A stretch of 47,511 bases of DNA from Paludibacteraceae bacterium (GTDB taxonomy: Bacteria; Bacteroidota; Bacteroidia; Bacteroidales; Paludibacteraceae): the NCBI GenBank assembly GCA_017439235.1, contig JAFSJN010000021.1:1-47511 (forward strand). Direction: 5' to 3'. Below the pieces are notes generated by a model that saw nothing but the letters and a program-made list of their open reading frames with translations, searched no databases and was not told the origin of the DNA. The translations under genes were made by a program, and so were the position numbers. Below, in pieces: positions 1 to 47,268 of the stretch. How positions within the stretch are numbered: the first letter of the stretch is position 1; each line of letters begins with the position of its first letter.

Positions 1-2
1 AA

Positions 3-124
3 AAGGAACAAGCCGGACTAACAGAAGGAGAAATAAAAGTAATAGAAGAAAACATAATAAGAAAAACGACCGACCCTTACAGGCCGGCCGTTTTAGTTAT
101 TGACGTGTTTGTCGACGTGCTTTA
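3..124 (+). CDS. Possible C-terminal tail of a gene entering from the left (uncertain)
   Basis: The frame starting at base 3 is open from the window edge to a TAG at 122-124 and would encode about 40 residues beginning KEQAGLTEGEIKVIEENIIR. The first 25 codons look coding-like (purine-rich first positions, many Glu/Lys/Ile). The second half runs straight through a minus-strand terminator hairpin and a repeat that codes on the other strand at 46.5 kb, so the real end of any such gene is doubtful. I do not recognise the family. Confidence 0.25.
58..92 (-). terminator. Rho-independent terminator, minus strand
   Basis: On the minus strand ACGGCCGGCC and GGTCGGTCGT form a 10-bp stem with two G-U pairs around a 6-nt loop, followed by TTTTTCTTATTATG. 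On the plus strand the two G-U pairs become A-C mismatches, so the structure is directional. It lies just after the small-gene remnant at 93-123. Confidence 0.7.
90..122 (-). repeat. Remnant copy of the 3' end of the 41-aa small-protein gene
   Basis: Thirty-three bases match 46542-46574 with two mismatches (113 and 120). On the minus strand both copies read into the same C-terminus: KHVDKHVNN-stop here and KHVNKHVNN-stop at 46.5 kb. Upstream here the frame reaches a TGA after about six more codons with no start codon, so this is a remnant rather than an intact gene. It is followed by a good terminator, as expected of the tail of a once-functional cassette. Confidence 0.6.
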
Positions 125-133
125 GGGTGCATA

Positions 134-177
134 AAGAATCACGCAGTAATCACACAATAATCACGCAATAACCACCC
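134..177. repeat. 11-bp tandem repeat, four imperfect units
   Basis: Consecutive units are AAGAATCACGC, AGTAATCACAC, AATAATCACGC and AATAACCACCC, differing at one to three positions from neighbour to neighbour. They sit directly upstream (minus-strand sense) of the small-gene remnant, in a stretch with no gene. The function is unknown. Confidence 0.7.
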
Positions 178-236
178 AATGCGGCTCTGTTGCAAAGTCG
201 ATTCGTATTGTATTTTCGTGGGTATCAGTGGTTGAT

Positions 237-271
237 AAAAAAGTGAGCGGCACGTGAATGCCGCCCACTTT
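237..271 (-). terminator. Rho-independent terminator of the channel/nuclease pair
   Basis: The minus strand reads AAAGTG, a bulged G, GCGGCA, a 6-nt loop, TGCCGC, a bulged T, then CACTTTTTT: a 12-bp stem with one internal mismatch and a U tract. It lies about 75 bp beyond the stop of the ion-channel gene. Positions 272-347 hold nothing else that I can identify. Confidence 0.75.
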
Positions 272-347
272 ACAGATATCGCCTATGAGCATTACCTTAC
301 ATCTTGGTCGTGAAAGAGGTAAATGCGAGAGGTGGAGCGAGAAATGC

Positions 348-1151
348 TCAAGGGAGGATTATTTTTCCTTTTTCTTCCAATAAATTCTTTACTTCCTCTA
401 CACTAGTTTGCAATGTCTTTAATTGTTTCTCAAGATCATCGTTGTTGTCAGCAACCATTGCATCAACAAAAATTGAATTGATGAAAGACATTCCAATAAT
501 TCCCCCCATTATGAGAAGCATGGTAAAGTAAACACGAATAACGTGCGGCAGAAGGGTTGAATTTCCATAATATTCTGCTACAGCATTGGGAATATCATAC
601 CATCCTTCTACAGTACAAATTTGGAAAACTGAATATATGGAGCAGAGTGGGGTATTAAAATGTTCAGGATCTGCTTCTTGGAAAAGGCTGCAATTTAGCA
701 GACCGAATACGACAATGATAACAAAGAAACTTAATAATACGCCGTATGACTGCCGCATAGCCACCTTAAATCCTTTTACTACCTTCGCAAAATTTGGGAA
801 GAAATGCATTACGCGGAAGAATCTCAGCACACGAAGAACTCTCAATATTAGTAAGACGGAAAGGCTACTTGCTATCGTAGGGATGAATATGTTGATGAGT
901 GACGGAATGGATAGTATTACCAAGATGCCGTCCATTCTATTCCATCCGTTACTCCAATAGCCGCGCACACCGTATTCACGATGCTTAACTGCCATTTCAA
1001 AGATAAAAATTATCGTACATGCGGCATCTACGATATCCAATGTCGTATTTTCGAATCCGCTTACTTGGCAATAGATAATAATGGCATTCAGCAAAATGAA
1101 CGCCATTATTATTTTATCATTTAGGAAAAATCTCCTTAAGATATTGTTCAT
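348..1151 (-). CDS. Voltage-gated-type ion channel, single six-TM domain
   Basis: The 267-aa product belongs to the Ion_trans superfamily and resembles single-domain bacterial channels of the NaChBac type, which form tetramers in the inner membrane. Membrane segments fall at about 14-30 (S1), 40-56 (S2), 74-92 (S3), 96-117 (S4), 137-157 (S5) and 207-232 (S6). S4 carries Arg at 104, 107, 110 and 113 at three-residue spacing, the voltage-sensor signature. The pore loop reads TVEGW at 180-184, compared with TLESW in NaChBac. Residues 236-262 look like a C-terminal coiled coil. I use the ATG at 1151, not the longer frame, because it lies 4 nt after the upstream nuclease stop, so the two genes are translationally coupled. 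Ion selectivity cannot be read with confidence. Confidence 0.85.
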   Translation of the reverse strand: MNNILRRFFLNDKIIMAFILLNAIIIYCQVSGFENTTLDIVDAACTIIFIFEMAVKHREYGVRGYWSNGWNRMDGILVILSIPSLINIFIPTIASSLSVLLILRVLRVLRFFRVMHFFPNFAKVVKGFKVAMRQSYGVLLSFFVIIVVFGLLNCSLFQEADPEHFNTPLCSIYSVFQICTVEGWYDIPNAVAEYYGNSTLLPHVIRVYFTMLLIMGGIIGMSFINSIFVDAMVADNNDDLEKQLKTLQTSVEEVKNLLEEKGKIILP

Positions 1152-1155
1152 CTTC

Positions 1156-2223
1156 TTAAATATATCGTTTTGCAGCCTCAATCAGTTGGTCTGCATAATT
1201 GAAGATTTCGTCTAACGACTCGATTTTATACTTTTCGCCCTTTCCATCAGCACCCATAGGTTCTAAGCGCAAGTTACTTTCATTATTGAAATGTAAGCGG
1301 CAGATAGGTTTGCGATTATTGTCATCGATGAAGATTGAGCAGTACGTAATTGCATCGCGCATGGTTACTCGATTGCCGGGGATAACTTCTCGAAGAATGC
1401 TTTTAACAATGTAATAGGCTTCTATCTCATTTTGTGTTGTCACAATTTCACTCTCTTTTTTAGTTCCCGGAATCTCTACTTGTTTGTCGTCTACTTTTTG
1501 CTGTTCTTCTTCATTGGTTTTGACAACAATATTTAAACGATCGGAGATTTTATCGTTTACATAACTGGCACAGGCCTTCTTAACTAGTTCAGTAAATTGT
1601 TCTAACACATTACCGGTAATCTTTCCTGTATACACTTGTTTGGCCAATGACTTAACGAATTCTGGATTAGGATTCTCTATTAACTCCTTTATAATTTTTT
1701 TTAACTCACTCATGAATTTCAACTCATTAGCAGAATTCATAATAGAGTCAATATCAAAATTTTCTTTAGTGAACTTTTCCAAGGCCTTCAATTGTACATC
1801 CTTCAACTCTTCAATATTAAAAGATAAGAACGGAATTTCATCCATTAAATTCTCCTTTGCCAAATCGGTGTAGAAACGATATTCCAAACCGTTGGTAAGT
1901 AATCCGAATTTAGCTTTTGATGCGACAAAATACCGAGCCAACTGCATTTTGTGCGAATCTAGGTTCTGTTGCCAATGTTTACATTCAATAACAAGAATCG
2001 TTTCCCCATCCTTAACGATGGCATAGTCTATCTTCTCGCCTTTTTTCTTGGTTAGGTCGCAGTCCATTTCGGGCACAACTTCCATTGGGTTAAACACATC
2101 ATAGCCTAATGCTTGAATAAAAGGCATAATAAGGGCATTTTTTGTTGCCTCTTCGGTTTGCAGGTTGTTTTTCAACTCACCGGCACGCTTTGCCAATTGC
2201 TTAATAGCTTCCTTGAAATCCAT
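1156..2223 (-). CDS. Solo HsdR N-terminal-like PD-(D/E)XK nuclease protein
   Basis: The 355-aa product begins with a region like the N-terminal nuclease of type I restriction HsdR subunits (HSDR_N-type family). Glu25 lies in TEEATKNALIMPFI, and the PD-(D/E)XK core is visible as KIDYAIV (Asp66) and LVIECKHW (Glu80, Lys82). No helicase/translocase domain follows. The remainder is Lys/Glu-rich helix and a C-terminal region (about 265-355) that I do not recognise. The ATG at 2223 is chosen because the family's start MDFKEAIKQL aligns there; a longer frame to 2367 would run through the palindromic element. It is the first gene of a two-gene unit with the ion channel and is more A+T-rich than the core genes. 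Proteins of this kind are often annotated only as HsdR N-terminal domain proteins; the substrate is unknown. Confidence 0.75.
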   Translation of the reverse strand: MDFKEAIKQLAKRAGELKNNLQTEEATKNALIMPFIQALGYDVFNPMEVVPEMDCDLTKKKGEKIDYAIVKDGETILVIECKHWQQNLDSHKMQLARYFVASKAKFGLLTNGLEYRFYTDLAKENLMDEIPFLSFNIEELKDVQLKALEKFTKENFDIDSIMNSANELKFMSELKKIIKELIENPNPEFVKSLAKQVYTGKITGNVLEQFTELVKKACASYVNDKISDRLNIVVKTNEEEQQKVDDKQVEIPGTKKESEIVTTQNEIEAYYIVKSILREVIPGNRVTMRDAITYCSIFIDDNNRKPICRLHFNNESNLRLEPMGADGKGEKYKIESLDEIFNYADQLIEAAKRYI

Positions 2224-2330
2224 AATATTTCGATTTTGGAGCCTACTCTTTAAGGGATTTTCGGCACACTCCACTATATAATTAAGTCTGTATTTGCGCA
2301 CAAAAAACGTGAGACTTGTTCGCTTCAATC

Positions 2331-2461
2331 TGGGTTCTTTAGGTTCTGGACAACCTCTTTTATCCAAATATCCGAAACAAGGCTCACGTCAAAACGTGAG
2401 CATAAAAGCCTTGTTCTTGGATAAAAGATTCTTAAAAATTGTCCAGATTTAGAAGAACCCA
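2331..2461. repeat. 131-bp imperfect palindrome, MITE-like
   Basis: Two arms meet at CTCACGT-caaa-ACGTGAG (2383-2400). Matching blocks in order are TGGGTTCTT / AAGAACCCA at the tips, TCTGGACAA / TTGTCCAGA, CTTTTATCCAA / TTGGATAAAAG and AACAAGGC / GCCTTGTT, separated by unequal bulges. No reading frame of its own is evident. Size, structure and position between the nuclease gene and a toxin-antitoxin pair suggest a non-autonomous element or a long structured RNA. Positions 2224-2330 are the nuclease gene's upstream region, where I see no perfect promoter box. Positions 2462-2568 hold only a short hairpin (AGCGCA / TGCGCT, 2491-2506). Confidence 0.7.
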
Positions 2462-2568
2462 AGTTCTTAGCTATAATGCTTTATCTATATAGCGCACACT
2501 TGCGCTTGTCCTCCTGTTTAACGTCGGTGAGCGACGACCGCTTTTTACGCCCGCGGTGCGGCGATAAC

Positions 2569-2835
2569 TTATTCGTAATGACCAAAAGAGGATATTACCA
2601 AAACCAATATTTGATCATCGTGGATTTCATATACAAGTCTATGCTCGCGGTTGATACGGCGCGACCATGTCTCATTCTTAAAATGCCGTAAACGCTCCAC
2701 TTGTCCTGTTCCCGTACGAGGGTGTTCCTCCAATTCCCCGACTAACTTGAGAAATTTCTTGAACGCAAGAGGTGCATTTTTGCGCAAAAGTACAACATCG
2801 CGTTGAGCCTCTTCGGAGAACCGGATTATATACAT
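2569..2835 (-). CDS. yoeB: Txe/YoeB-family mRNA-interferase toxin
   Basis: The 88-aa protein matches the RelE/YoeB fold family, whose members cleave mRNA in the ribosomal A site. Diagnostic features are the TGTGQVERLRH segment (Glu47), WSRRINREHRLVYEI (Arg66) and the C-terminal FGHYE (His86, Tyr87), corresponding to the family's catalytic Glu, Arg and His. Length is normal. The start overlaps the upstream antitoxin stop by 10 nt, the usual antitoxin-first order, so the toxin is translated by coupling. It lies between a palindromic element and a truncated aminotransferase gene, consistent with an accessory region. Expected regulation is autorepression by the toxin-antitoxin complex at the promoter near 3114-3145. 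Confidence 0.9.
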   Translation of the reverse strand: MYIIRFSEEAQRDVVLLRKNAPLAFKKFLKLVGELEEHPRTGTGQVERLRHFKNETWSRRINREHRLVYEIHDDQILVLVISSFGHYE

Positions 2836-3086
2836 AATAATCTGTCTATAAATTGTTCAACCGTCTCTTCCGGTTTTTTCTCAATGTAGTGTCCGGCCTC
2901 TGCTTGGGCACTGGAGTATGCTAACTTAGCGCGAAACTCCTCCTCGGTCATCTTTACCTTGGGAGTTACTGCACGTTTCGGACGAATAGTGGTAACATGC
3001 CAACCCATATTACGCGATTGACGACGCAGAAATGCTGCATCTACCACGGGCAGAGTTACCTGTAATGTTCTCATCTGAGCCTCCAT
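2826..3086 (-). CDS. Antitoxin partner of the YoeB-like toxin
   Basis: A small basic/acidic protein of 86 aa (82 aa if the ATG at 3074 is used) directly precedes and overlaps the toxin gene. The N-terminal half (about 5-45) contains TLPVVDAAFLRRQSRNMGW and is probably the DNA-binding part. The C-terminal half, with EEEFRAKLAYSSAQAEAG and TVEQFIDRLLCI, looks helical and would wrap the toxin. I take ATG 3086 because AAAGGA lies 7 nt upstream, but GGAGG also precedes ATG 3074 at good spacing, so the start is not settled. It does not look like a classical Phd/YefM; the identification rests mainly on operon position. Confidence 0.75.
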   Translation of the reverse strand: MEAQMRTLQVTLPVVDAAFLRRQSRNMGWHVTTIRPKRAVTPKVKMTEEEFRAKLAYSSAQAEAGHYIEKKPEETVEQFIDRLLCI

Positions 3087-3113
3087 AAATCGTTCCTTTA
3101 AGATTTTGCGCCG

Positions 3114-3145
3114 CAAAATTACACAAAAAAAATGACATACGCAAA
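3114..3145 (-). promoter_or_regulatory. Promoter of the toxin-antitoxin operon
   Basis: On the minus strand the -7 box is TAATTTTG (3121-3114) and the -33 TTTG is at 3145-3142 with exactly 20 bp between them. The -33 element is in the loop of the terminator at 3124-3160. Confidence 0.75.
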
Positions 3146-3160
3146 TTTGTATGCCATTTT
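3124..3160 (-). terminator. Terminator after the aminotransferase remnant
   Basis: The minus strand reads AAAATGGCATAC, loop AAATTTGC, GTATGTCATTTT and then further Ts: a 12-bp stem with one G-U pair and a long U tract. The plus strand also ends in a short T run, so it may work both ways. It overlaps the antitoxin promoter. Confidence 0.85.
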
Positions 3161-3191
3161 TATGCAGATTTGTTGAAAAGGGAGCATCGTA

Positions 3192-3815
3192 TCATACGAA
3201 GTTATTGACGCACTCAACGACGTAGGCTATCTGTTCCGGTGTCATGCAGGGACTGATAGGCAACGACAGCTCGGCATTGGCGAGGAACTCAGTGATGGGC
3301 AACGAGAGTTGCGGCAGGTTCCAAGCTTCACGCGCATAGCACTCCTGCTGATGCGGAGCGATGGGATAGTGGATGACCGTACCAATCTCGCGTTCAGCAA
3401 GATAGTCGTGTAAAGCGTCGCGTAACGAGCCTACCCCGTCCCTCCCTGAAGGGAAGGAGTTCTTCACCAGCACGGGGAAGAGGTGATAAACGTTGTTCTC
3501 GTCCGGCAGTCGTTCAGGCAGCTCAACTAAAGGATTATCAATCCTCTCATAGTAGTATTTAGCTACTTCTTGACGCTTCGCGATGTCTGCGTCTAAATAC
3601 TTCAGCTTCACGTCCAAAATCGCAGCCTGGATTTCATCCAAACGGCTGTTCCGTCCCGCATATTTGAACACATACTTGCGCTGCGAGCCATAGTTAGCCA
3701 ACGCACGCACAGCAGACGCCAGCGCCGCATCATGAGTAGTCACCGCTCCTGCATCGCCTAAGGCTCCGAGGTTCTTACCCGGGTAGAAAGAGTGTCCGAC
3801 CGCATCGCCGTGACG
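3192..3815 (-). pseudogene. 5'-truncated DegT/DnrJ/EryC1 PLP aminotransferase
   Basis: The frame encodes only the C-terminal half (about 207 residues) of a sugar-nucleotide aminotransferase of the DegT/DnrJ/EryC1/StrS family, normally about 360-400 residues. Homology begins abruptly at [19 protein letters not shown], which includes the PLP-binding Lys of the PGKNLG motif. Upstream there is a TGA (3818-3816) and no family sequence, so the substrate-binding N-terminal half is gone. Family-typical [18 protein letters not shown] and HYPIAPHQQ follow. An in-frame insert at about 3432-3466 ([11 protein letters not shown]) looks foreign (see findings). Translation could begin at GTG or ATG codons inside, but the product could not fold as a normal enzyme. 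Confidence 0.85.
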
Positions 3816-3866
3816 TCATGTAAACTCAAAAAAGGAACTGTCATATCAACACTTATTGGCTGAAGG

Positions 3867-4877
3867 TTAATGTAGAATCTTGTAGATTAACTCCTTCCAC
3901 AGGTCATCGTCTTTGGCGGAAGGGTTGTTGATACCCTTGAGACGGGCATCGGTATCACGGAACCAGCCGATGATAGCAAAGGTCTTACCGGCATTGAAAC
4001 GACGCGCAGCAGCGGCATAATCGCGTGCAAAATAAGGATTGATACCCAACGCGGCGGCTACGGCACGGTCCGACTTATCGGGCAGGTAATGGTAAATCAT
4101 CAGGTTAGCAAAGAAAGCATACAAGATACCCAACTCCTTAACCATAGGATGGTCCTTAGACGAAGCAAAATAACGCGTGATACGGTTGGCCTTAACAACA
4201 TCACCCTTGATAAGCGCATCCTGGAGTTCAAAGATATTATAGTCCTTACTGATACCCACATTGCGTTCCACCAGCGTCTCATCAATAAGCGACACACCTT
4301 CGGGACGACCGTCTACCAACTTATCCAACGCGCCCACGATAGCCGTCAGGTCGTTGCCTATATAGTCGGCTAACATCTGCGGCACACGCGGCGTGACCTG
4401 CAACTGACGGGCGATGAGGTAATTGGTTATCCAACCCGCCACCTGGTTATCGCGTAACTTATCCGACTGCATGAGGTCGCCGCCTTTCTTCTCGAAATTC
4501 TTCCACAGCGTCAGACGCTTATCCGGCAGACCATACTTATAGCATAGTATGAGCAGCGACGAGGGTTGGGGATTATCCATATACAGCGACAGGGCATCCC
4601 ATTTCTTAATCGTCTGCGCCTCGCGTACGATGACGACCTTATGGCCACCCATCATAGCAAAACCACGAGCCTGGTCCACCGCAGGCGCTATATCTAAGCC
4701 CGGCAGGTCCTTACCATAGATAACGACCTGGTCAAACTCACGCGACATAGCGTCCAAGATGTGCTCCTCAGCGTACGCACTCGCGCAATCGATATAATAA
4801 CTCTCCTCGCCGCATAGCAAGGTGACGGGAGCAAATTGCTCCTGTTTCCAACGGGTTATGAGGGCATCGTACGTCAT
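3867..4877 (-). CDS. holA: DNA polymerase III subunit delta
   Basis: The 336-aa product is the clamp-loader delta subunit, which opens the beta clamp during replication. The N-terminal AAA+-like region contains VTLLCGEESYYIDCASAY and a family-typical PSSLLILCYKYG without a functional Walker A. The middle carries AGWITNYLIARQL and NDLTAIVGALDKL, and the C-terminal helical domain carries DYNIFELQDALIKGD and YAAAARRF. I chose ATG 4877 rather than the longer frame to 4916 because a strong promoter lies at 4886-4917, so the longer start would be outside the transcript; the leader is only a few bases. It is transcribed divergently from the amidase gene. No terminator is evident before the truncated aminotransferase. 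Confidence 0.9.
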   Translation of the reverse strand: MTYDALITRWKQEQFAPVTLLCGEESYYIDCASAYAEEHILDAMSREFDQVVIYGKDLPGLDIAPAVDQARGFAMMGGHKVVIVREAQTIKKWDALSLYMDNPQPSSLLILCYKYGLPDKRLTLWKNFEKKGGDLMQSDKLRDNQVAGWITNYLIARQLQVTPRVPQMLADYIGNDLTAIVGALDKLVDGRPEGVSLIDETLVERNVGISKDYNIFELQDALIKGDVVKANRITRYFASSKDHPMVKELGILYAFFANLMIYHYLPDKSDRAVAAALGINPYFARDYAAAARRFNAGKTFAIIGWFRDTDARLKGINNPSAKDDDLWKELIYKILH

Positions 4878-45610: not shown

Positions 45611-46003
45611 TTATCTTTCTTCGAACGAGCCGTCGGTGTAGAAGATAATAATCTTAGCTACCTGTTTGCCGGCATTATCCGTCTTATCGGCAGCATTAAT
45701 CTCGCCTGCAGGTATCCATTCCTGCTGATTCTTAGGCTCTTGGATGGGTGGTATATCGAATAACGCCGTCTGCGGTCCGTCGCCGTTCATGCGGTACATG
45801 GAGCCGATACCTAAGATGAGCCAATCGGAGTTGATGGTGCGGAAGCGGTTGAGGATGGCACGCATGACGTCGAGGCTGGGATTGTTACGCCCACCCATGA
45901 TATTAGATATCGTACCTACGCTCACGCCAATCTCTTCAGCGAACTGTTTGGCGTTGAGCTTCTGAGATTCCATTATTTGCTGCAATCTGTCACGTTCGTT
46001 CAT
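45611..46003 (-). CDS. XRE-family helix-turn-helix transcriptional regulator
   Basis: The 130-aa protein has an N-terminal Cro/CI-type HTH (about 4-65): RLQQIMESQKLNAKQFAEEI, VSVGTISNIMGGRNNPSLDV, then a short hydrophobic stretch SDWLILGIGSMYR. The rest is a Pro/Glu/Asn-rich linker and a C-terminal segment VAKIIIFYTDGSFEER, which looks like a beta-hairpin. This HTH plus DWLxxGxGxMxR layout is common among Bacteroidales XRE proteins. It is transcribed from its own promoter, 67 bp before ettA. It may repress itself through the CACATGTG site in its promoter. Confidence 0.85.
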   Translation of the reverse strand: MNERDRLQQIMESQKLNAKQFAEEIGVSVGTISNIMGGRNNPSLDVMRAILNRFRTINSDWLILGIGSMYRMNGDGPQTALFDIPPIQEPKNQQEWIPAGEINAADKTDNAGKQVAKIIIFYTDGSFEER

Positions 46004-46036
46004 ATTATGCGAGTATTAGAGTTTCAAAATCGGCTG

Positions 46037-46068
46037 CAAAATTATGAAAAATTTTTCACATGTGCAAA
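46037..46068 (-). promoter_or_regulatory. Promoter of the XRE gene with internal CACATGTG
   Basis: On the minus strand the -7 box is TAATTTTG (46044-46037) and the -33 TTTG is at 46068-46065, spacing 20. The palindrome CACATGTG (46057-46064) abuts the -33 element inside the spacer, a fitting site for autorepression. Confidence 0.75.
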
Positions 46069-46541
46069 TTTTTGCAACAAAAAATTTATTTCACCTGTAT
46101 TTTTCTTTTGTGAACACTTGAAAAGATAGCCGATTTTGAGGCTATTGGGTAAATACCTGCTAATCAGGAGGCATGTGCTATATATGTACTCTTTAAGTAA
46201 AACACATAATTACAACAATTACAAAAAATTACAAAAAATTCAATGTGCATATATACCCAAAAATGAAGGTATACAGAGTAGAGTGCATAAATGTTGTATA
46301 CGATAGTTGAGGTAAAATGTATAAGTAATTAGTATATAATGTTTTCACTCCTTATTATACATATTGTTCTGCTCAATAAAAAGAGGTGATGCAACCTGCG
46401 TATACACATTTCACAGATTGCATCACTATGTTGTAGGGATGGTTACGCTTTTGTAAAATCTCAACCTCTCACAAATCTAAATTTCACAAATCCGCACCTC
46501 GATTTTGTTTCACCTTTCTATTACTCCCCTACTCTATTTTT
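46069..46541. other. AT-rich gap without a recognisable gene
   Basis: About 470 bp hold no convincing coding frame on either strand. Visible features are repeated AATTACAA runs near 46206-46240, a hairpin-forming pair TGATGCAA (46387-46394) and TTGCATCA (46418-46425) with a 23-nt loop, and two GATTTGTGA-type motifs on the minus strand near 46466-46495. No T tract follows the hairpin, so I do not call it a terminator. No promoter box of the TAnnTTTG type with a good -33 was found. Confidence 0.5.
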
Positions 46542-46544
46542 GTT

Positions 46545-46670
46545 TTAGTTATTGACGTGTTTGTTGACGTGTTTCTTACCGATGGAGAAGATTAGTTCGA
46601 ACAAACCGATGAGGAAGCTCCAGAGAGACTTCTTGCCCTCAGGAGAGAGGGAGGTTGCTTTATTACTCAT
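46545..46670 (-). CDS. 41-aa small protein with amphipathic/membrane helix
   Basis: The frame MSNKATSLSPEGKKSLWSFL...KKHVNKHVNN starts at ATG 46670, 5 nt after the stop of the 67-aa gene. Its middle LWSFLIGLFELIFSIG is a single hydrophobic helix flanked by Lys. In size, position and helix it recalls the very short proteins called smalltalk in Bacteroidales, which often precede an amidase gene, but the sequence match from memory is weak and no amidase follows here. Its last 11 codons are duplicated at the left end of the window (90-122), which supports it as a real unit. Confidence 0.6.
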   Translation of the reverse strand: MSNKATSLSPEGKKSLWSFLIGLFELIFSIGKKHVNKHVNN

Positions 46671-46675
46671 AGTGC

Positions 46676-46879
46676 TTACTTATCTTGATGATTACCTTGC
46701 TTGCTACGATAGTTGTAGTCGATGCCGATGACAGAGCCGACGAAGGTGAGTGTCTCGCCATACGCCACGAGGACGGAGGGAGAGATTTCCCCTTGTGGAG
46801 GGAGGAGGAGGCCCGTAAAGAGCATCCCCACTCCCATCACAATGAGAAACACAGCCATATAAAACTGCTTGAGCGACAT
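46676..46879 (-). CDS. 67-aa two-helix membrane protein, holin-like
   Basis: The small protein has two hydrophobic segments, about 6-27 (FYMAVFLIVMGVGMLFTGLLLP) and 37-56 (VLVAYGETLTFVGSVIGIDY), joined by a short PPQGEISPS turn, and a charged tail (RSKQGNHQDK). This is the general plan of class II holins, and small proteins of this type occur in Bacteroidales cassettes, but no function is established here. It lies between the 124-aa and 41-aa genes, 14 and 5 nt away, so the three are one operon. Confidence 0.65.
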   Translation of the reverse strand: MSLKQFYMAVFLIVMGVGMLFTGLLLPPQGEISPSVLVAYGETLTFVGSVIGIDYNYRSKQGNHQDK

Positions 46880-46893
46880 CGTTCCTCAGACGA

Positions 46894-47268
46894 TTAGCCG
46901 TTCTGCTGGTCGTAGGTGGCTTTCTCGAGTGCCCACAGGTACGACTTCATCGTCTTGTAGGTCGACTGCGCGTTGAAGGACGCTTGGTCGGTGATCATCT
47001 TAGCCGGGTCTTTCATACGAGCAGCGACAGCTGCCGAGACGGTCTTGAAGCGCAACTGGCGAGCCAGGTCTTCCTGCGTGAAGGGTTTGGTGCGTTCGTA
47101 GGTGTCAACCTTGCGGATGTACAGACGAGTACAATCGTTCGACGTGGTCGGCGCCTCGCGGTGAGTGCCGATCAGATAGTCGCCATGCTTGTGACCATCC
47201 ACTTTCTTAGGCTTAGCCAACGAACCTTTTACATACTGAATACCGGGTGCATAACTTACTTTTCCCAT
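46894..47268 (-). CDS. Uncharacterised 124-aa Bacteroidales protein, first gene of small cassette
   Basis: The protein starts MGKVSYAPGIQYVKGSLAKP and contains HKHGDYLIGTHREAPTTSND, CTRLYIRKVDTYERTKPFT, LARQLRFKTVSAAVAARMKD and a C-terminal TYKTMKSYLWALEKATYDQ. It is basic and hydrophilic, without signal peptide or membrane segment. I do not recognise a named domain; position in the cassette resembles that of HU-like proteins in other Bacteroidales clusters, but no HU signature is visible. ATG 47268 is preferred over the frame start at 47325, because AAGAAAAGA precedes it and the upstream sequence is a structured leader. Confidence 0.7.
   Translation of the reverse strand: MGKVSYAPGIQYVKGSLAKPKKVDGHKHGDYLIGTHREAPTTSNDCTRLYIRKVDTYERTKPFTQEDLARQLRFKTVSAAVAARMKDPAKMITDQASFNAQSTYKTMKSYLWALEKATYDQQNG

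Follow-up and report, generated by a model that had tools for sequence, protein, structure and literature searches.

A solo HSDR_N-type nuclease and a voltage-gated-type cation channel, encoded next to each other in a Paludibacteraceae genome, are judged to be a co-functional and co-expressed mobile module. The two genes are linked in relatives with operon-like spacing, their catalytic and channel motifs are conserved, and the pair moves as a cassette. Most likely the module is anti-phage and would work, by analogy, like lambda RexAB, through a DNA-acting cytosolic protein and a membrane channel. No paper on such a nuclease-channel pair was found among open-licence papers. The window, i.e. the whole stretch of DNA analysed (47,511 bases), is an entire contig of an assembly that is 77% complete. 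Its features in and around the pair are the following.

348-1151, minus strand: six-helix voltage-gated-type cation channel of 267 aa with a Cav-like TVEGW filter, the second gene (Pfam PF00520, PDB, alignment)
1156-2223, minus strand: solo HSDR_N-type PD-(D/E)XK nuclease of 355 aa, the first gene of the operon (Pfam, PHROG 4225)
2240-2274, minus strand: DUF805b-like RNA leader (RF02914), 16 nt before the nuclease ATG
387-2283, minus strand: conserved cassette of nuclease, channel minus its last 39-70 nt and a leader of ~60 nt (blastn)
94-63, minus strand: terminator-like hairpin of 14 pairs with a T-rich tail, 253 nt beyond the channel stop
2331-2461, no strand: long imperfect hairpin upstream of the cassette, outside its conserved part (fold z -7.1 for 2321-2470)
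2569-2835: Txe/YoeB toxin, in a toxin-antitoxin pair near the nuclease-channel pair
3192-3743: remnant of a DegT/DnrJ aminotransferase, C-terminal half, matching profile positions 185-359 of 360 alone

The two genes and their surroundings

The nuclease matches HSDR_N (PF04313, E 7.8e-15) and HSDR_N_2 (PF13588, 7.1e-10) and no further Pfam domain, and the PHROG 4225 'endonuclease' profile covers its residues 1-354 (E 1.9e-123). Asp66, Glu80, Lys82, Gln94 and Tyr98 (numbering of the window protein) are invariant in an alignment of 34 sequences; we take these residues to be the motif set of RecB-like PD-(D/E)XK nucleases. Unlike HsdR of type I restriction, the 355-aa protein has no helicase-like translocase after its nuclease domain, HSDR_N models alone matching in Pfam. 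HsdM or HsdS partners were not recognised in the ORF lists of the window, which were read by eye without a profile search.

The channel belongs to Ion_trans (PF00520, E 1.7e-33), with six hydrophobic stretches in a simple hydropathy count. Its S4 (LLILRVLRVLRFFRVMHFF) carries Arg at 104, 107, 110 and 113, its filter (CTVEGWYDIP) contains Glu182 and has Gly at filter position 4, and a charged C-terminal helix resembles a coiled coil when judged by eye. In the PDB, T- and L-type calcium channels score best (7.5e-32), ahead of the single-repeat 'Ion transport protein' entries (6.7e-21); for the long channels the score is a sum over several repeats. By alignment, the window channel belongs to a Bacteroidales subfamily with 38-74% identity to it and a conserved NSIFVDAM-x-x-DNN stretch. 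Channels with an EGW filter are here termed class A, and R104, R107 and filter residues E183, G184 and W185 are invariant in 16 class A rows (numbering of the alignment's first row). Between the window and other sequences, dN is 0.058-0.098 for the nuclease (four comparisons) and 0.176-0.302 for the channel (four comparisons, the paired relatives giving 0.176 and 0.185), values that are compatible with purifying selection; dS is saturated and yields no dN/dS.

Upstream of the nuclease, the DUF805b-like leader scores 30.2 bits in a permissive Rfam search, under the gathering score of 35.6; at the gathering threshold, positions 1-4000 of the window have no Rfam match. In the corresponding position of five relatives (L053, L081, L055, L219 and L082) the leader exceeds the gathering score; coordinates for four of them are listed here.

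L053, 5950-5984: DUF805b leader
L055, 4438-4472: DUF805b leader
L219, 1310-1344: DUF805b leader
L082, 3621-3655: DUF805b leader

Elements of this type also stand ~20 nt before lipoprotein genes and many unrelated genes in the window's family, and the sole other copy reported in the window's own assembly precedes a LEM-3-type GIY-YIG gene (L400). DUF805b was rejected as a marker of the nuclease-channel module alone, since it precedes many genes; it points to regulation of the module and not to its identity.

Both genes lie on the minus strand, 4 nt apart (1152-1155). Measured kilobase by kilobase, GC content is 0.40, 0.35 and 0.43 over positions 1-3000 and 0.43-0.55 elsewhere, save 0.40 at 46001-47000. 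The long hairpin separates the pair from the YoeB toxin gene. As a repeat family it is unsupported, with one copy in its own assembly, and its match to MIR7533, at 23.5 bits where gathering requires 230, is rejected as fortuitous. No phage genes were recognised by eye in the ORF lists of the window. The first-pass annotation had described a PD-(D/E)XK core (Asp66, Glu80-x-Lys82) without translocase, followed after 4 nt by a six-TM channel with an S4 Arg series, a TVEGW filter and a coiled coil, and then by a terminator, in an A+T-rich setting with a toxin-antitoxin pair, a palindrome and a gene remnant. All of these are present at or near the pair, the core being invariant in the 34 aligned sequences, the coiled coil seen by eye and the terminator in the form of the terminator-like hairpin.

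Recurrence and mobility of the pair

Among 102 nuclease loci read from three genome samples, 14 have a channel on the same strand and no more than 1 kb away, to which one convergent case (L235) is added. By sample, the counts are 6/19 in the window's own family, 2/50 in the phylum and 6/33 in the order. Strong nuclease matches (E <=1.6e-90) occur in 19 of the 200 family genomes and channel matches (<=5.4e-59) in 35; both genes occur in nine (3.3 expected), six of which hold them within 13 nt and one of the family's genomes with both (G179) holds them 1,014 nt apart. In the phylum sample the nuclease is present at E <=1e-30 in 54 of 395 genomes, the window's own included, and 50 loci were read of 55 matches. 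Four genomes (G259, G279, G301 and G337) were judged by contig and position alone, with two cut at contig ends. In the order sample, 35 of 393 genomes have the nuclease, and the 33 loci that had not been read already provide the six same-strand channels and L235. The channels of L244 and L152, both Ion_trans, were entered by hand in the pair count. Against these 15 neighbours, L235 included, ~0.11 are expected by chance in 103 genomes from channel counts and genome sizes, with the counts transcribed by hand and kinship ignored. Beyond the samples, a same-strand channel stands within 1 kb of the nuclease in four of nine additional genome contigs, where L058 has a 119-aa channel half only, and in 4 of 80 IMG/VR contigs, the best 80 of 447 matching stretches. 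All neighbours but the convergent L235 share the strand of the nuclease (22/23), and 17 of these 22 overlap it or are <=16 nt away. Pairs span nine family-level groups (f1, f2, f34, f61, f95, f129 with the convergent case only, f143, f147 and f172). Two gene orders are found.

Nuclease first: window, L053, L055, L081, L244, L247, L163; IMG/VR contigs L258, L259, L262
Channel first: L056, L058 (half channel), L068, L070, L071, L074, L152, L234, L236, L238, L245, L318

The channel partner is not always of class A. K+-type channels take its place in L163, L244 and L247, with TVGYG filters, and in L152 and L235, with degenerate ones; in L163 an Endonuclease_NS protein sits between nuclease and channel. 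Because adjacency is far above chance, in nine family-level groups, in both orders and with two channel classes, a coincidental association is dismissed for the module in general, and the coupling proposed by the first-pass annotation is supported.

Unpaired copies are in the majority for both genes: they make up 181 of 203 rows for the nuclease and 49 of 67 for class A channels. Of 52 genomes outside the order that carry the nuclease, a single one has a channel next to it. When an order sample of the same kind is searched by channel, class A channels occur in 31 of 393 genomes, five beside the nuclease and 26 not, and nine of these 31 genomes carry the nuclease anywhere (2.8 expected). In genera g27 (G054, G159, G143 and G155, with loci L090, L091, L093 and L096) and g15 (L104, L106, L107 and L108), the channel stands among neighbours that recur from locus to locus, with no nuclease there. 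The earlier annotation had set two observations against its own proposal, namely rare adjacency of homologues and conservation of the channel at a shared locus without the nuclease; the former does not hold, and the latter is seen in these two genera.

In the channel tree, the window channel groups in a clade whose members are mostly solo and lies outside the main channel-first clade, and the starred branches force at least five changes for the channel-first and at least two for the nuclease-first state. In this tree and in the count of nuclease rows, 'solo' includes L110, whose contig ends just past the channel, and 'channel-first' includes L082, with its spacing of 1,014 nt. The tree gained 19 channels from 21 loci, no channel of >=210 aa being called in L373 and L382. 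Of the 203 nuclease rows, 149 entered the nuclease tree, where a random draw of 20 represents the unpaired IMG/VR rows and the convergent L235 is labelled nuclease-first; rows of <330 aa were excluded from the trees, so that the nuclease of L238, as called, was dropped. Paired members are scattered on it, with 8 (channel-first) and 6 (nuclease-first) changes forced, by a quick method with SH-aLRT only. The letters X were stripped from a few rows before the trees were built. As the paired state is scattered on both trees, the two genes have become linked or separated on several occasions.

The pair travels as a cassette whose flanks differ between relatives. In blastn comparisons with L053, L055 and the single contig that carries L052 and L081, DNA similarity starts at 387 or 418 and stops at 2282 or 2283; the flanks beyond are unrelated, save a piece of 44-55 bases near 3100 in two of these relatives. 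Such a 55-base piece (window 3098-3151, L052 4274-4327) is 95% identical amid otherwise unrelated flanks. Two further relatives share the nuclease and the leader: L219 (nuclease 89% identical) is without the channel, and in L082 (90% identical) a PIN-domain gene separates the nuclease from a channel that lies 1,014 nt upstream. The L082 channel was considered as a broken gene and this was rejected, the 261-aa frame being intact and ending at its own stop.

Viral relatives and defence neighbours

The nuclease family is present in 18 phage records, in 60 records of a plasmid collection (some chromosome-sized) and in the 447 IMG/VR stretches. Six of the nine phage records opened (L210, L211, L212, L214, L217 and L218) have a repressor or regulator before the nuclease and an integrase after it, with an ImmA-like 'metallo-protease' in two of the six. 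The other three differ: L216 has a repressor and a metallo-protease and no integrase within reach, L215 has hypothetical genes only around the nuclease, and in L209 the nuclease lies among HicAB and neck or tail genes. Among viral loci, upstream neighbours match HTH_3 in 18/90 cases and Peptidase_S24 in 11/90, and downstream neighbours match Phage_integrase in 6/74, the scans having covered 90 of 100 upstream and 74 of 84 downstream neighbours. A 1,044-base HsdR-N gene is described in the available part of PMC8713573 for Campylobacter jejuni, in the phage-resistant one of two strains and with no clear role assigned there. The channel is absent from all 17 named phage or plasmid nuclease loci opened, and a search with the channel returned no phage record and two weak plasmid matches. 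Class A channels occur in seven viral contigs, beside the nuclease in four; in the three others (L335, L336 and L337 of IMG/VR, of 47, 154 and 5.6 kb) the nuclease is absent from the stretch read. In one genome (G437, locus L152), an S24-type repressor, the channel and the nuclease stand in a row, an arrangement that resembles the position of rexAB behind CI (PMC12894663).

PADLOC 2.0.0 assigns the window pair to no system; the nuclease has weak Cas4-type matches only, and the channel has none. Around 18 pairs, 85 of 86 neighbours were scanned, for pairs only and without a control set. Among the matches listed are 25 families, each matched by 1-3 proteins, and 48 of the 75 model matches come from one OLD-like ATPase near the pair of L235. 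Known defence genes, for which the first-pass annotation had suggested looking near the pair, are thus sparse in this control-free scan, and beside the window pair only the toxin-antitoxin genes were seen. Among 20 order-level loci of solo channels, three adjoin restriction or abortive-infection genes, and a fourth class A solo channel has other neighbours.

L384, 1667-4681: solo class A channel beside an MmeI-type RM enzyme (99 nt)
L379, 3312-5075: solo class A channel beside GmrSD (180 nt)
L374, 4138-5025: solo class A channel beside AbiEii (16 nt)
L368: solo class A channel near a KAP NTPase with GIY-YIG genes

In L376, L377, L380 and L385 a solo channel follows members of one gene family, the member in L376 being a secreted PKD/CHU_C protein. 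Endonuclease_NS genes, encoding a second nuclease fold, adjoin voltage-gated-type channels in L086 (8389-9962), L100 (5396-6232) and L163 (5936-6706). A regular association of Endonuclease_NS (PF01223) with class A channels was nonetheless rejected, since such a gene lies within 1 kb of one only in G181 and G169 among the 200 family genomes, and in G169 a second channel stands between the two. In L087 (2448-5946), proteins of 568 and 595 aa follow a 261-aa channel in tandem, the 595-aa one being Ion_trans (Pfam).

Possible function and relation to known systems

A mobile module that guards the cell or a prophage, with the nuclease as sensor and the channel as effector, is the explanation preferred as a whole, and it is advanced tentatively, at somewhat less than an even chance. 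The module would shield the cell, or a prophage residing in it, against incoming phage. In this scheme, the HSDR_N protein would act on invading or replicating DNA, which it would bind and probably cut; once engaged, it would open the membrane channel, either directly or through a product. The ensuing cation flux (Ca2+ as predicted from the filter of the window channel, K+ elsewhere) would upset the membrane potential and abort the infection. The membrane potential is the more plausible target than one particular ion because Ca2+-type and K+-type filters both fill the place. That the module serves defence, and that in it the nuclease acts before the channel, is suggested by the RexAB-like layout, by the prophage home of many relatives and by the restriction or AbiE genes beside three of 20 solo channels. 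Paired linkage, two channel classes, the scattered trees, the repressor-integrase setting and the row in L152 count for this explanation. Against it count the unpaired majority, the g27 and g15 channels without nuclease, the 17 phage and plasmid loci without channel, the single pair in 52 genomes outside the order, the settings of L209, L215 and L216 and the few PADLOC matches per protein. Of the defence module envisaged by the first-pass annotation, the coupling therefore stands, and defence itself is indicated only indirectly, by prophage lysogeny modules, the restriction or AbiE neighbours of three solo channels, and mobility.

Other readings distribute the roles differently. The two genes may form a stress or ion-homeostasis operon, in which the channel would answer osmotic or voltage stress and the nuclease would be a co-regulated partner outside defence. 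The presence of DUF805b-type leaders before lipoprotein and other genes agrees with this, as do the TerB-like, kinase-like and small repeated proteins seen by eye near solo channels of several family genomes; the abundance of the nuclease family in phages and viral contigs, and cassette flanks that differ in each relative, make it unlikely, if worth keeping in mind. Nuclease and channel cassettes might also enter the same insertion places and meet often as cargo without joint function. Such hitch-hiking would account for both genes being alone more often than together, for L219 without its channel and for the displaced channel of L082. It fits poorly with the tight spacing (17 of 22 pairs), the single strand (22 of 23) and repeated linkage with different channel classes, and is rated as quite improbable. 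As to an orphan nuclease and a housekeeping channel having come together by chance, which the earlier annotation had offered as its alternative, a single window alone cannot exclude it; with ~0.11 expected and 15 observed, it is scarcely credible.

The roles of the two proteins could finally be reversed. Phage DNA injection would depolarise the inner membrane, the channel would sense this and open, and an ion signal or the cytosolic tail would activate the nuclease or recruit it to the entry site. The invariance of R104, R107, E183, G184 and W185 in the 16 class A rows is in line with such a sensor. So is Gly at filter position 4, which helps to determine Ca2+ selectivity in CavMr (TLEGWVD filter) according to the part of PMC7041947 available, and the available part of PMC13190303 describes SNIPE, a membrane-bound nuclease that cuts phage DNA during injection. 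A specific Ca2+ signal leaves unexplained why K+-type channels, two with degenerate filters, take the same place, and the reading is held to be doubtful, more so than hitch-hiking. A broader version would see a Bacteroidales voltage-sensing immune module, whose channel reads injection depolarisation and licenses a membrane-near nuclease via ions or the cytosolic tail, with channels shuffled among nuclease-, restriction- and Abi-type partners; this is a speculation of lower probability still.

Under the preferred explanation of a nuclease sensor and a channel effector, the module works most like RexAB-type exclusion (lambda RexA/RexB, RexABpp, Sbash gp30/gp31), a comparison of function drawn by analogy. 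In the parts of PMC12894663 and PMC6426596 available, RexAB is encoded by adjacent genes, one for a cytosolic protein that binds DNA in the case of RexA and RexApp, the other for a membrane protein of ion-channel type, and lambda rexAB and RexABpp lie near a CI-type repressor, rexAB after CI. The likeness lies in two adjacent genes for a cytosolic protein and a membrane channel. Yet the module falls outside RexAB by its parts, as its soluble component is a PD-(D/E)XK nuclease (Pfam HSDR_N only) and not RexA-like, and its channel is of the six-helix voltage-gated type (Ion_trans) and not of the four-helix RexB type. A repressor is absent from the ORF list beside the window pair; the S24-type one was identified at L152. 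With the solo HSDR_N proteins of PHROG 4225, named 'type I restriction endonuclease', the nuclease shares a full-length profile match and the PD-(D/E)XK residues; it differs in being channel-paired here, whereas the 17 named phage and plasmid loci are without channel. CavMr and related single-repeat bacterial channels resemble the window channel in their single-repeat voltage-gated type and Gly at filter position 4, as far as PMC7041947 is available; the window channel differs as a member of a nuclease-linked Bacteroidales subfamily, and its Ca2+ selectivity is predicted from the filter Gly alone. SNIPE, as described in the available part of its source, is possibly similar in coupling a nuclease to the membrane, with the difference that two separate genes are present here and a channel is the membrane part.

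The pair recurs in rumen bacteria and their relatives, with a nuclease of the kind carried by many prophages. To our knowledge, little is settled about what bacteria use voltage-gated Ca2+- or K+-type channels for, and a recurrent operon with a prophage-type nuclease provides a concrete, testable role for them. The module could extend abortive immunity by a new class of effector and, if the preferred explanation is true, parts resembling the repeats of animal calcium channels would serve in a two-gene bacterial module.
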